36,623 nucleotides of DNA, from NCBI GenBank assembly GCA_016182105.1, contig JACOXZ010000015.1, positions 1-36,623 of the forward strand, in the 5' to 3' direction. Shown here in pieces: positions 1-36,525 of this stretch. Each line of letters starts with the position of its first letter. The stretch's first letter is position 1. The notes below the pieces were generated by a model. The model saw only the letters and a list, made by a program, of their open reading frames with translations. It was not told the DNA's origin and did no database searches. The position numbers were made by a program, and so were the translations under genes. Origin of the DNA: Candidatus Liptonbacteria bacterium. GTDB lineage: Bacteria; Patescibacteriota; Minisyncoccia; UBA6257; 2-01-FULL-56-20.

Positions 1-436
1 TCACCCAGATGCAATAGTCCTTGTCGGCTTTGCGGTCCGAGGTGATGTCGTCAAGGTTATCCCAGTACTTCCAGGCAAGCATCAGGGACTTGATCCGGCC
101 AAAGATTTTCTCCGAGGTCATCCCCTCTGCGACCACAATGAGGCGGTCGAAACCATCTCGTTTCTCCGGAATCCGGAGACTTGAGAAGTCCTTAGCCAAA
201 TCGAAGTGCTTCTTGTAGAAATGCTCCCAGTCCACGATAAGTTCCTGCACGGAAGCATCGGTTTTCGCCGGCGGCATCAGCGCCTTGCGGAGCGCGTGCT
301 TCAGACTCCCCTTTTTGCCGATCCATCCCTGCATGACGTTGGTCGTCATATCGGGTGGTAGACTCTCGATAACCGCGGCGGCAAACTCTTTCATTTGACC
401 GGCGGTCGCTTCTTGGACAGTCTCATGCTTTTTCAT
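1..436 (-). CDS. Accessory paralog family protein, copy 1 (C-terminus beyond window)
   Basis: The frame is open from an ATG at 436 to the window edge (about 145 codons), so the ORF track missed it. From 'HFYKKHFDLAKDFSSLRIPE' through 'FDRLIVVAEGMTSEKIF' to 'TSDRKADKDYCIWV' it matches the copy at 15003-15683 almost residue for residue, and its last part matches the copy at 21383-21880. The first 60 or so residues differ from both. A GAGGAAC Shine-Dalgarno lies just upstream of the ATG, and the leader and promoter are nearly identical to those of the 21880 copy. No signal peptide or membrane segment is visible. Function is unknown; from memory, similar ORFs occur in many copies in parcubacterial genomes. 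The expected missing end is a variable tail closing in A-V-S, as in the other copies. Confidence 0.85.
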   Translation of the reverse strand, partial: MKKHETVQEATAGQMKEFAAAVIESLPPDMTTNVMQGWIGKKGSLKHALRKALMPPAKTDASVQELIVDWEHFYKKHFDLAKDFSSLRIPEKRDGFDRLIVVAEGMTSEKIFGRIKSLMLAWKYWDNLDDITSDRKADKDYCIWV

Positions 437-7053: not shown

Positions 7054-8889
7054 TTATTTTTTGAGGAGTTCCCGAAAGACGGCTGGTGATAAACTGACTT
7101 TAGCGAGTTTTTTTAATTTCTCTTTCCCCTTTTTTTGTTTTTTCCAAAGTTTCATTTTCCGGGTCCGATCGCCGCCGTAGAGATAGCCGGTTACGTCTTT
7201 CCGCAAGGCCGGAATAGTCTCCCTAGCAATAATCCTACCCTTTGCTCTTGCTTGAAGGGCCTGGCTGAATTGAAGCGGCGGCAGAAACTTTTTTAATCGC
7301 TCCACAGTCAAGCGGGCTTCGTGCTCTATGTCTTTGCTCTTCGTAATCCTTGTTAAGGCCGGCTGAAGCTCGCCCGCAATTAAAATCTCGAGCTTCTCGA
7401 CTTCAGTCTCCTCCTCACCGTCTAATTCATAGCTGAAGGAAGCAAAACCGGCTGAAACAGATTTAAGACGATCGTCGAAATCTCGGATTAGCTCGGATAA
7501 GGGCATCCGGCCGTGAAGAAGAAGATTTAAGCCTAAATTTCTAATCTCGATAATCGCGAGGTCAAAAAGGCTTTTTAAATTTAAAATTTGGTTCAGATAA
7601 GATTCCGGCGTTAAAATTTCAACTCTAATCATCGGTTCAAAAACTTTATCGGGCTTCTCGGGAAAATCTTGGGGCTGTTTCACGACTCTCTCCTTACCCG
7701 CCTCAATCACTCTATAAGCAATAGTTGGGAAGCTTGTCAAAAACTCCAAATTAAACTCTCGCCGGAGACGGTCGCTTGTAATTTCGAAGTGAAGTTGGCC
7801 CAAAAAACCGACTTTTAATCCCCTACCTAGGGCATCATTAGATTCCGGCTCAAAACTTAAAGCCGCGTCATTTAAACGTAAGCGCGTGATGGCCTCTTTT
7901 AAATCTTCAAAACGGCTTCGACCGTCAGGATAAAAAGAGATAAAAACCACCGGTGCGGCTTCCCTGTAACCGGGAAGTGTTTTAACCTCACCCTTAGCAA
8001 TTGTATCGCCGATTTTAACCAAATCTGGTTCTTTAAGACCTGTTGCGAGATAGCCGATCTCGCCTTCGCGAAGAAGGCCTTTGGGCGTGAGGCGAGGCGC
8101 AAAATAGCCGGACTCTTTAATTTTGAATTTTTCCTCACGCGCGAGAAGACAAACCTCCTCACCGGTTTTAAATTCGCCCTCAAAGACCCTCACAAACGCC
8201 AAAATGCCTTTGTGGTCATCGTAGAGAGAATCAAAAATGAGGGCTTTGGCCGCCCCTTGGGTTTTTACCTCCCGTGGCGGAGGAACTTTTTTTATAACAG
8301 CGTCTAGGAGCTCTTTCACGCCTTGCCCTGTTTTTGCGGAAATTTTCAAAATCTCCTCCTTGGGCGTCTTAAGGATCTCGGCTAGAGACTCCAGAACTTT
8401 CTCCAGATTTTCGGGTTGAAGATCAATTTTATTCACGGCTCCCAAAATTTTGAGTCCAGCTTTTTCCGCTGACCGCAAATTAGAGAGTGTCTGGGCTTGA
8501 ATACCTTTTGCGGCATCCACAAGCAAAATCGCGCCTTCGCAAGCGGCTAAAGCCCGGGAGACCTCATAAGAAAAATCGCTGTGCCCGGGCGTATCAATCA
8601 GATTCAGGATGTATCCTGAATCTGCAATTTCTAAACGTTTAGGAATTGATGCTTGGGATTTGTTTAGAAATTCGTGCTTAGAGATTAGTGCTTGCGGATG
8701 GTATACCATCCGGACAGGCGCCATTTTTATCGTAATACCCCTTTCTCTCTCAAGCTCCAGTTGATCTAAATACTGCGGCCTCATCTCCCTCTCTGGCACA
8801 GCGCCTGTAATTTCCAAGAAACGATCAGCTAAAGTTGACTTGCCGTGGTCTATATGCGCGATTATGACGAAGTTACGAATGTTGCTCAT
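7054..8889 (-). CDS. lepA: Elongation factor 4 (LepA) GTPase
   Basis: A 611-residue translational GTPase that acts on stalled or initiating ribosomes. G motifs are intact: 'AHIDHGKST' (G1), 'RERGITIK' (G2), 'DTPGHSDFSYE' (G3), 'NKID' (G4) and 'SAKTG' (G5). The LepA-specific C-terminal domain is present ('GRIIARETIPALRKDVTGYLYGGD', shortened here: 'IPALRKDVTGYLYGGD'), ending in a basic tail. Compared with other LepA proteins there is an extra stretch of about 30 residues between the G2 region and 'LNLIDTPGH', encoded by palindromic and low-complexity DNA (8599-8712). The start lies 22 nt after the DUF4012 gene. Confidence 0.97.
   Translation of the reverse strand: MSNIRNFVIIAHIDHGKSTLADRFLEITGAVPEREMRPQYLDQLELERERGITIKMAPVRMVYHPQALISKHEFLNKSQASIPKRLEIADSGYILNLIDTPGHSDFSYEVSRALAACEGAILLVDAAKGIQAQTLSNLRSAEKAGLKILGAVNKIDLQPENLEKVLESLAEILKTPKEEILKISAKTGQGVKELLDAVIKKVPPPREVKTQGAAKALIFDSLYDDHKGILAFVRVFEGEFKTGEEVCLLAREEKFKIKESGYFAPRLTPKGLLREGEIGYLATGLKEPDLVKIGDTIAKGEVKTLPGYREAAPVVFISFYPDGRSRFEDLKEAITRLRLNDAALSFEPESNDALGRGLKVGFLGQLHFEITSDRLRREFNLEFLTSFPTIAYRVIEAGKERVVKQPQDFPEKPDKVFEPMIRVEILTPESYLNQILNLKSLFDLAIIEIRNLGLNLLLHGRMPLSELIRDFDDRLKSVSAGFASFSYELDGEEETEVEKLEILIAGELQPALTRITKSKDIEHEARLTVERLKKFLPPLQFSQALQARAKGRIIARETIPALRKDVTGYLYGGDRTRKMKLWKKQKKGKEKLKKLAKVSLSPAVFRELLKK
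8599..8712. repeat. Palindromic insertion inside lepA
   Basis: The segment is bounded by two perfect palindromes: 12-bp arms with a 2-nt loop at 8599-8624 (CAGATTCAGGAT and its complement) and the 18-bp CGGATGGTATACCATCCG at 8695-8712. Between them is AT-rich sequence of simple composition. It is translated in frame as an extra loop between the G2 and G3 motifs of LepA ('ISKHEFLNKSQASIPKRLEI'). This resembles the palindromic elements known to sit inside Rickettsia genes. Confidence 0.75.
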
Positions 8890-14942: not shown

Positions 14943-14975
14943 TAAAAAAAACCCCAAACATTTCTGTTTGGGGTT
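14943..14975 (-). terminator. Intrinsic terminator after accessory copy 2
   Basis: AACCCCAAACA / TGTTTGGGGTT form an 11-bp stem with a short loop, followed on the minus strand by a run of eight T residues. Confidence 0.9.
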
Positions 14976-15002
14976 AAAGAATAAAGCTACAAGTTACAAG
15001 AA

Positions 15003-15683
15003 TTACGAAACTACTGCACGAGAACGCATGTCGACGCTCTGACCGCCAGGGCCGGACCAGAACACGCCCACCTGGACGCCGCTCCAGTACACGCCCGGGA
15101 CGCTACCGCCAGAGTGACGCGAACCCGTGCAAAGGGTCGAGTTATCAACGTCCAAGTGCTTCCCGGTTTCATCGAAGAACTTAATCTCGTAGATGAACCG
15201 TTCTTCGAGCGTGATACTGGGGATGTTTTCCCGCTTCAGGTCGTTTGCGGATTTGTTCTTCAGCTCCTCGTCAGCCTCGACGCGGTTTCTCACCCAGACA
15301 CAATAGTCCTTGTCGGCCTTGCGATCCGAGGTGATGTCGTCGAGATTATCTGAGTACTTCCAGGCCGGCATCAGGGATTTGATCCGACTGAAGATTTTCT
15401 CCGGGGTCATACCTTCCGCGACCACGATCAGGCGGTCGAAGCCTTCTTCATGTTCGGGGATTCTTAGGGTGGAGAAATCCCTGTCCAGATTGAAGTGTTT
15501 TTCGTAGAAGAACTGCCAACCGGCAAGAAGTTTTTCACACTCACTCCCTGATATGCCACCGCGGAGAAATCCTTGAAGGCGGTTCTTGGTTATTTTCCTG
15601 CTCTCAATCTGAGCGAAGAATTCTTTGATCTGCGCAGGCGTCGGAGAATCCGAGGCCCAGGCAGTCGCATGCAACTTTAACAT
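15003..15683 (-). CDS. Accessory paralog family protein, copy 2 (complete)
   Basis: A 226-residue protein of unknown function, the complete reference copy here. It has a copy-specific N-terminus (about 1-60), a constant block from 'FYEKHFNLDRDFSTLRIPE' through 'FDRLIVVAEGMTPEKIF' to 'ETGKHLDV', and a C-terminal 45 residues that differ strongly from the 21383 copy ('SVPGVYWSGVQVGVFWSG' versus 'SVPSVYWHDGEVSVFWYF') yet end alike ('R-x-A-V-S'). The tail pattern VYW...VFW...R is reminiscent of C-type-lectin/sulfatase-modifying-enzyme folds used by diversity-generating retroelement targets; this is inference. It has its own promoter, a strong AGGAGG site before the ATG, and its own terminator. No signal peptide. 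Confidence 0.85.
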   Translation of the reverse strand: MLKLHATAWASDSPTPAQIKEFFAQIESRKITKNRLQGFLRGGISGSECEKLLAGWQFFYEKHFNLDRDFSTLRIPEHEEGFDRLIVVAEGMTPEKIFSRIKSLMPAWKYSDNLDDITSDRKADKDYCVWVRNRVEADEELKNKSANDLKRENIPSITLEERFIYEIKFFDETGKHLDVDNSTLCTGSRHSGGSVPGVYWSGVQVGVFWSGPGGQSVDMRSRAVVS

Positions 15684-20590: not shown

Positions 20591-21202
20591 TTACTTACGG
20601 ACGGCGGCGAATCGGTAGAGCGAACGCCACCTGTCGTCAAACCAGTACAAGCGCAGGTCACGCCGGCTGGGAAGCCCGTCGAGGCACGGGACGCGGCGCT
20701 CGCCGAAGTCCTGCCACACGGAACCAAGAGCGACTACCGGAAACTCGCGCTGCACATCGGGGTAGTTCACCCCGAAGGCAAGGAGTTCCGGAAGTTCGAG
20801 AGCTCGGAGTCCCTGCTTATCAAGTTCATGAAGGACTTCCTCAGACTTGATGTGATGATTGAAGTGAACGAGGATGACCTCTACGTCCGCCTCTCCCTTG
20901 CGAGTCGAAGAGAAATTATTGGCCGTGATACTGCCGCTACTCCAGTCGTATTTTCCGGCATTGACCGCCTCTTCAACTAAAAAATCATAGTTAACCGTAA
21001 GCTTGTATCTCTGGAACTTAGACTGGCTTGCCTCGACGATGAGTTCAGCAAATTCCGGCACTAAGGGACTGTCATCCTTTAGAGCCTCGTATATTGCCTT
21101 GTCGCTTCCGCCGCGCTTCCGAACCTCTTTATCGAGATTCACCCAGAAGCTCGAAATAAATCCAGCAGCGCCCACTACTGCAGACACACTTTTCTTTGAC
21201 AT
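20591..21202 (-). CDS. Accessory hypothetical protein with 'YRFAAVRK'-type C-terminus
   Basis: A 203-residue protein of unknown function. Visible segments are 'KFQRYKLTVNYDFLVEEAV', 'VEVILVHFNHHIKSEEVLHE', 'GLRALELPELLAFGVNYPDV', 'FPVVALGSVWQDFGERRVPC' and the end 'LRLYWFDDRWRSLYRFAAVRK'. From memory, this is a family repeated in parcubacterial genomes, with a constant 'VALGSVW' block and a variable Trp/Tyr-rich stretch closing in RFLAVRK-like residues. The tail parallels that of the 15003/21383 family (VP, aromatic strands, R-x-x-A-V), suggesting a shared fold. It carries the same promoter type as its neighbours, a GGAGG site and its own terminator. No signal peptide. Function not assigned. 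Confidence 0.8.
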   Translation of the reverse strand: MSKKSVSAVVGAAGFISSFWVNLDKEVRKRGGSDKAIYEALKDDSPLVPEFAELIVEASQSKFQRYKLTVNYDFLVEEAVNAGKYDWSSGSITANNFSSTRKGEADVEVILVHFNHHIKSEEVLHELDKQGLRALELPELLAFGVNYPDVQREFPVVALGSVWQDFGERRVPCLDGLPSRRDLRLYWFDDRWRSLYRFAAVRK

Positions 21203-21319: not shown

Positions 21320-21352
21320 TAAAAAAATGACCCCGGACGTTTCCGTCTGGGG
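21320..21352 (-). terminator. Intrinsic terminator after accessory copy 3
   Basis: CCCCGGACG pairs with CGTCTGGGG (one G-U pair), tetraloop-sized loop, then a run of seven T residues on the minus strand, ending within 10 bp of the next promoter. Confidence 0.9.
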
Positions 21353-21382
21353 CCAAAGAATACAAGTTACAAGATACGAGGG

Positions 21383-21880
21383 TTAGGAAACTGCTGCACG
21401 AACACGGATACCGCCGTCCCGATTGTCGGGAAAGTACCAGAAGACGCTCACCTCGCCGTCGTGCCAGTACACGCTCGGCACGCTGCCATACGGAGTCCGA
21501 GAACCCGCGCAAAGAGTGATTTTTTGAACGTCAAGATGCTTGCCGGTCTCGTCGAAGAACTTTAGCTCGTAGAGCAGTCGTTCTTCGAGCGTGATGCCAG
21601 GGATGTTTTCCCGCTTCAGGTCGTTCGCGGACTTGTTCTTCAACTCTTCGTCAGCCTCGACGCGGTCTCTCACCCAGATGCAATAGTCCTTGTCGGCTTT
21701 GCGGTCCGAGGTAACTTCCCAATCAGCCGTTAGCTCATTTACGCCCGCAAACGGATTTTGCTTTTTCAAAAACAATTCCAGCTGTCCTGGCTGAATCGCT
21801 CCATGTTGGAGCTTCTGCGCCAGGTCTCCTAACATACCAAGCACGTTGCCCGGTACGTCGCCGATCATTCCTTTTTTCAT
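21383..21880 (-). CDS. Accessory paralog family protein, copy 3 (internally shortened)
   Basis: A 165-residue paralog of the genes at 15003 and 1-436. The N-terminal 55 residues are copy-specific. Then 'ELTADWE' joins directly to 'VTSDRKADKDYCIWVRDR', so the about 60-residue 'HFYKKHF...NLDDI' block of the other copies is missing. From 'TSDRKADKDY' to 'ETGKHLDV' it is nearly identical to copy 2; the final 45 residues diverge sharply ('YGSVPSVYWHDGEVSVFWYF', end 'RVRAAVS'). The ATG follows an AGGAGG site at good spacing. Leader and promoter are nearly identical to those of copy 1. Function unknown; the modular joins suggest recombination between copies. Confidence 0.85.
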   Translation of the reverse strand: MKKGMIGDVPGNVLGMLGDLAQKLQHGAIQPGQLELFLKKQNPFAGVNELTADWEVTSDRKADKDYCIWVRDRVEADEELKNKSANDLKRENIPGITLEERLLYELKFFDETGKHLDVQKITLCAGSRTPYGSVPSVYWHDGEVSVFWYFPDNRDGGIRVRAAVS

Positions 21881-21962
21881 GATCAGTTCCTCCTGTTTTC
21901 AAAAGGTTTCCTTCCGCGGCCAGCGTTATTGCCGACCCGCGAGGATACCTTAACTATCTATA
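21881..21962 (-). promoter_or_regulatory. Structured leader of copy 3, duplicate of 437-518
   Basis: The leader up to the -10 box matches that of copy 1 with only a few substitutions and can form the same CCGCGG-based stem ahead of AGGAGG. See the finding on the shared expression module. Confidence 0.6.
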
Positions 21963-35853: not shown

Positions 35854-36525
35854 CTTACTGTAATCTCCTATTACTAAGAGTGTCGGACTATACCACCATC
35901 CAGCTGTAGTTTTCTAAACTACGGCCGGAGATCGACGTGTAGTCTCTACGGGGTTAATGTATGTCGTTTTCGCTTCTTCGAATAATTCAATTCACGAAAA
36001 TGATCAATTAGTTTTGCCATCGCAGAAAAATCATCTTTGTTTTTAACTTCCGCTTTTGAGTCAAGAATTTTAATCATCAAAGATGCTTGTTCTCGTTTAA
36101 GGATTAGATATGGTTTTACCATCTGAAGAAAAGTGCGAATTGCGTCTTCTCTTCCGATGGTGTATTCGAGAATCCCATCCTTACGTTCACGTATATATCC
36201 AAGATCAATAAGCGAGCAAATTTTGTTAAATTTCTCTCGCTCTTTTTGAGACTGAAATAACACTATATACGGAGCGATCTGAAAACCGTAACGATACGAA
36301 TCGTTAGGTTTCATCCTCACGTAAATACTGCCATCTCCGTCTAAAAATCCTGCAATATATGCTTTCTGCGTTGACGAAAGACTTTTCATACACAACTTCC
36401 CTCGGTATTATCCTAACATATGACAGGTTGACATACAATAGGACTTCACCGATATGAGTCGATTTATTCGAGCAACCTTACGGTCGCAAGCCGCCGTGTT
36501 TGATGTCTCCTCGGTTCAGTTGTTG
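35854..36525 (-). other. Group I intron in 23S rRNA (E. coli position about 2593)
   Basis: The exons read '...CAGACCGT' and 'CGTGAGACAG...', which join to the continuous conserved sequence; a U precedes the 5' site and the intron's last base is G, as in group I introns. P7-like strands are 'GAGACTACACG' and 'GGTATAGTCCGACAC'; a GNRA-capped hairpin CGACC-GTAA-GGTTG and 'TATCGGTGAAGTCC' are typical core parts. The site equals that of the Chlamydomonas chloroplast intron encoding I-CreI (from memory). Exon GGTTCAG can also pair with intron CTGAACC across the splice site. Confidence 0.88.
35946..36389 (-). CDS. LAGLIDADG homing endonuclease encoded in the 23S intron
   Basis: A single-motif LAGLIDADG protein of 147 residues; the motif is 'YIAGFLDGDGSIYVR' near residues 11-25, with the catalytic acidic residue in 'DGDGS'. 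The single motif implies a homodimer, like I-CreI. The expected role is to cut intronless 23S genes at the insertion site and drive intron spread; some members also act as maturases. The ATG at 36389 is preferred over the TTG two codons earlier because GAGGG is 9 nt upstream of it. The ORF lies entirely within the intron, between the P4-P6-type and P7-type parts. Confidence 0.92.
   Translation of the reverse strand: MKSLSSTQKAYIAGFLDGDGSIYVRMKPNDSYRYGFQIAPYIVLFQSQKEREKFNKICSLIDLGYIRERKDGILEYTIGREDAIRTFLQMVKPYLILKREQASLMIKILDSKAEVKNKDDFSAMAKLIDHFRELNYSKKRKRHTLTP

Follow-up and report, generated by a model that had tools for sequence, protein, structure and literature searches.

The 36,623 nt of Candidatus Liptonbacteria contig JACOXZ010000015.1 that were analysed (hereafter the window) carry three paralogous genes, copies a, b and c, which we read, with a probability of roughly 0.8 and judging from their sequences, as orphaned targets of a diversity-generating retroelement (DGR) that have since drifted as ordinary genes. 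Together with a gene of a second family beside copy b, they would encode the variable proteins of a DGR of the Patescibacteria (CPR) type, in which a low-fidelity reverse transcriptase (RT) with Avd would copy a template repeat and misread adenines, and the resulting cDNA would replace the 3' end of the target gene, giving divergent tails of 40 residues on a constant scaffold. The retroelement would since have been lost from this genome, leaving tails that drift at silent sites as far as the cores do, and the present products are most likely orphaned, frozen and still conserved putative binding proteins.

A search of the genome assembly (588 kb in 28 contigs, 94% complete) recovered copies a, b and c as the only members of the family, all on the minus strand of this contig (Table 1). 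This agrees with the first-pass annotation, made from the letters of the window, which had proposed three related genes with a constant core and a diverged tail and had asked for all copies in the genome to be collected. Copies a and b can be aligned gap-free over their last 111 codons, and they differ at 12 of 71 core residues versus 20 of 40 tail residues. The variable block spans these 40 residues rather than the 45 first described, and the invariant frame noted within it is real (SVP-x-VYW...VFW...R-x-R). Both a and b had been taken as complete, which holds for copy a only; in copy b about 60 residues are missing (FFYEKHF...NLDDI) that copies a and c and the family alignments have. The tail of copy c is absent from the assembly. 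Recombination or misassembly at b and c is possible because window nt 1-43, at the cut end of copy c, are identical to the matching part of b. The deletion junction of copy b coincides with the point where copy c meets the contig end, and from this sequence comparison the gap in b could be either a true deletion or a misassembly. Copies b and c also have a near-identical 5' leader in common (TTAAGGTATCCTCGCGGGTCGGCAATAACGC..., at 21881-21960 and 437-520 on the minus strand), and their N-termini differ.

Table 1. Target genes, variable regions (VR) and associated 3' elements in the window
Feature	Position	Strand	Basis
Copy a, full-length DGR-type variable protein, 226 aa	15003-15683	-	Genome search, family alignment
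VR of copy a, 40 codons (GSR...VVS)	15006-15125	-	Codon-for-codon alignment to relatives' template repeats
CTT tract of four CTT triplets spaced 7 nt apart, just past stop codon of copy a	14977-15000	-	
GC-rich hairpin then T run, terminator-like, at the usual place of a DGR target hairpin	14950-14975	-	
Copy b, DGR-type target, 165 aa, about 60 conserved-domain residues absent	21383-21880	-	Search and alignment
VR of copy b	21386-21505	-	Adenine-site mismatches against L045 template
CTT tract after copy b (CTCGTATCTTGTAACTTGTA)	21361-21380	-	
GC-rich hairpin with GAAA loop after copy b	21331-21352	-	
Copy c, 5' portion of third paralogue; contig stops ahead of VR	2-436	-	
Gene of second, unrelated DGR-target family, beside copy b	20591-21202	-	Relatives in L077, L087, L060
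Tail of second-family gene	about 20594-20725	-	Aligns with templates in L077, L087, L060

Of 244 genomes from the order, 30 contain the tail domain, and GTDB genomes have it at 48 loci (genomes, contigs and loci are given below as G, C and L numbers). Nearly all of these loci are labelled Patescibacteria, and the exceptions in label, L101 (Syntrophobacterales) and L132 (Deltaproteobacteria), may be binning errors. When the same order was searched for RTs, these were seen to adjoin several family genes, and an RT lay inside the fetched flanks at 23 of the 48 GTDB loci. G074:C1 contains a full element, with the target gene followed by a 120-bp near-copy of the target end and then by the RT. The layout is conserved across loci as target, template repeat, antisense avd and RT, where Avd was identified via bAvd (PF22296) and NF033474; at L041, L045 and L096-L142 the antisense avd mostly overlaps the start of the RT gene. 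Pooled over 25 template/variable pairs from 23 distinct loci, mismatches occur at 492 of 813 template adenines versus 81 of 2112 other bases, the latter figure being biased low because the scan had a ceiling of 14 non-adenine mismatches, and the former being unselected. This pattern is DGR mutagenesis. The suggestion that the window's copies are DGR targets is thereby borne out in relatives of the same protein family, both by the adjoining template repeat, Avd and RT and by the restriction of template/variable differences to adenines, and the copies themselves have homologues in which the 3' end is matched by an RT-linked template repeat. One relative, L054 (G104:C24, 4743-5700), has an intact target, a truncated template and an RT remnant with two stops, and is an element caught while dying. 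In L038 (G036, 7450-7763) the first target copy lacks part of the core and changes frame ahead of the VR, and is a pseudogene or a misassembly. No relatives came up in two IMG/VR scans or in a protein-only scan of GTDB contigs, so a phage origin is unsupported.

The window's own tails were then aligned codon by codon with the template of L045, using codon positions 1 and 2; the templates used for this footprint come from genera other than that of the window genome. Mismatches of the copy a tail fall on 24 of 32 template adenines and 6 of 48 other positions (p=1.5e-8), those of the copy b tail on 17 of 32 and 7 of 48 (p=3e-4). The same comparison of the cores against three relatives gave no adenine bias (p=0.46-0.98). 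Likewise, copies a and b differ from each other in 19 of 31 tail columns that hold an adenine in seven length-matched templates, versus 7 of 47 other columns (p=2.8e-5). The proposed concentration of variation at template adenines is therefore seen when the window's tails, and not its cores, are compared with relatives' templates. Construction of the tails by a DGR is directly visible in the relatives; for the window's copies we infer it from this adenine footprint, and regard it as very likely.

Two readings that dispense with a retroelement have to be weighed against this footprint. The genes could be ordinary paralogues, never served by any retroelement, in which the C-terminal binding surface evolves fast; this would agree with a genome in which neither RT nor template was found and with silent sites that drift normally; yet the changes sit on the template adenines of relatives while the cores have no such bias, the homologues are RT-linked targets and a second target family adjoins, so that we consider this highly improbable. 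Recombination with silent cassettes, i.e. gene conversion from partial copies, is even harder to credit: orphan tail fragments do lie near the gene in some relatives such as G036, but there they are adenine-rich templates and not variant cassettes, and partial copies were not found in the present genome.

The adjoining gene belongs to the second target family. At L077, L087 and L060 its relatives lie close to an RT and a template, and their template/variable differences amount to 47 of 106 at adenines versus 4 of 299 elsewhere. The window's own gene has the adenine footprint in its tail against each of the three templates (p about 2e-6 to 8e-8). With this gene the window therefore has at least four DGR-type targets, from two families.

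Whether these targets are still being rewritten can be judged at silent sites, since targets rewritten from one template should agree at VR third positions. Three co-rewritten pairs in relatives do so, with differences at 2 of 42 (G036), 2 of 40 (G237) and 0 of 42 (G238) third positions, the cores of the G238 pair differing at 16 of 70. Copies a and b lack the silent-site identity of targets in a complete active DGR: they differ at 13 of 41 third positions in the tail and 22 of 70 in the core (dS 0.57 and 0.68, respectively). Silent divergence in the tails thus equals that in the cores, and therefore no single template has recently served to rewrite both a and b. A core dN/dS of 0.14 indicates that the scaffold is, as far as codon substitutions tell, still under purifying selection. 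Silent differences would also arise if an active DGR served only one copy, or if there were two templates. We nevertheless think it probable that no active DGR acts on both a and b.

The first-pass annotation had seen no RT or template repeat in the window, and this now extends to the whole genome. No RT was detected in the 94% complete assembly with a Pfam profile and a family RT query at E-values up to 10, although the same family query gave 2e-128 in G074 and 9e-24 on the decayed RT in G104. No template repeat was found in the genome, and when the window was searched for short remnants of a template, only the other copy matched. The Avd search of the genome gave only two sub-threshold matches, on C21 and C4, which on inspection look like ordinary S23/IVP-type four-helix proteins and were rejected. 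With no RT, template or Avd recovered by these searches, the genes fit as targets and are not classed as a working DGR. A genome without an RT had initially been held to count against the DGR idea; it speaks against current activity here and leaves the origin of the tails unaffected. Moreover, a missing RT does not prove inactivity, since G238 has no assembled RT and yet freshly co-rewritten tails. A distance of about 85 kb separates the two G238 targets (L039 and L040, on G238:C2); their VR silent sites are identical and their cores diverged, which is evidence for rewriting at distant sites.

The main competitor of the orphaned state is a DGR that is still active, with its template, Avd and RT in an unassembled stretch past copy c. 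Copy c runs off the contig start toward the side where relatives have template repeat, antisense avd and RT, so the cassette may sit in this gap; contig breaks within the target also occur in L115, L138 and L139, and the G238 tails were co-rewritten in an assembly without an RT. Against this stands the silent divergence between a and b, equal in tails and cores. On balance we find continued activity unlikely, and lean only slightly toward an RT truly absent from the organism over one merely unassembled. RVT_1 matches are missing from 11 of the 30 target-bearing genomes of the order, the present one included. RT-led surveys therefore miss such repertoires; silent sites alone are enough to recognise the products of a DGR, to date them and to tell live from orphaned ones, even without the retroelement.

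Many targets carry a CTT triplet every 7 nt directly past the stop codon, followed by a GC-rich hairpin. At least three CTTs at this spacing follow 23 of 55 targets versus 27 of 26,824 background segments of 50 nt, from which the target loci had not been removed, and among 1,057 gene ends those positive for CTT are targets with one exception. In the 588-kb genome CTTGTANCTTGTA occurs exactly twice, directly after a and after b; a third CTTGTA-type motif, on C19, falls within a glycosyltransferase-like reading frame and was taken as chance. From these sequence counts the tract looks like an undescribed cis element. Its function is put forward as a hypothesis because the pattern was noticed before it was counted, and because 7-nt repeats of similar composition also occur elsewhere in these genomes. 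Tentatively, and at somewhat less than even odds, the tract might mark DGR targets in Patescibacteria and let one element rewrite distant ones, genomes that lose the retroelement keeping a frozen repertoire of its products under purifying selection. If functional, it would offer a sequence handle for locating distant DGR targets. The hairpin follows 32 of 55 targets versus 71 of 568 other gene ends; the inverted repeat is present after both a and b, where it can also be read as an ordinary terminator. A GRNA hairpin loop was rejected as a general DGR mark, as only 2 of the 55 targets have it.

Among described systems, DGR clade 2 of Patescibacteria/CPR is one of the nearest; it is reportedly also treated by Paul et al. 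2017. Roux et al. 2021 (PMC8144416) described a DGR clade restricted to Patescibacteria, whose targets have no recognisable domains, and stated that their survey misses targets far from an RT. By description, the copies studied here fit this kind (putatively clade 2) as targets: they too come from cellular Patescibacteria genomes, have no recognisable transmembrane or other domains and vary C-terminally under adenine direction; unlike clade 2, no RT or template was found in the window genome and the tails show normal silent drift. The DGR of Bordetella phage BPP-1 (Mtd, Avd, bRT; Guo et al. 2011, PMC3240598), in which a hairpin past the VR is required, resembles the relatives' elements in the C-terminal VR, the template downstream and a GC-rich inverted repeat within about 35 bp past the VR. 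It differs in that an antisense avd separates the template from the RT in the relatives (24 of 24 loci having both avd and RT), that their hairpin loops are mostly not of the GRNA type, and that a CTT tract at 7-nt spacing precedes their hairpin.

Window proteins gave nothing useful in Pfam, NCBIfam and PHROGs scans, the copies matching no Pfam or NCBIfam family at E-values up to 1, and a sequence-profile search of the PDB gave nothing. AlphaFold (AF2), run on 43 window and GTDB sequences, modelled copy a with a pLDDT of 91. In the proposed comparison with lectin folds, Foldseek of this model gave no significant match in the PDB list or the viral library, and known DGR variable proteins of C-type-lectin fold recur in the PDB list, with Treponema TvpA and four Mtd variants at ranks 2-6 and, below these, TaqVP (rank 24) and several C-type lectins, all of TvpA, Mtd and TaqVP at E-values of at least 1 and TM-scores below 0.2. 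A diverged C-type-lectin fold is thus weakly suggested by the predicted model.

Apart from the targets, the window (35946-36395, minus strand) and L045 (8581-9030, minus strand) each encode a small protein that by eye resembles LAGLIDADG homing endonucleases (AGFLDGDGS; RGLVDGEGC).
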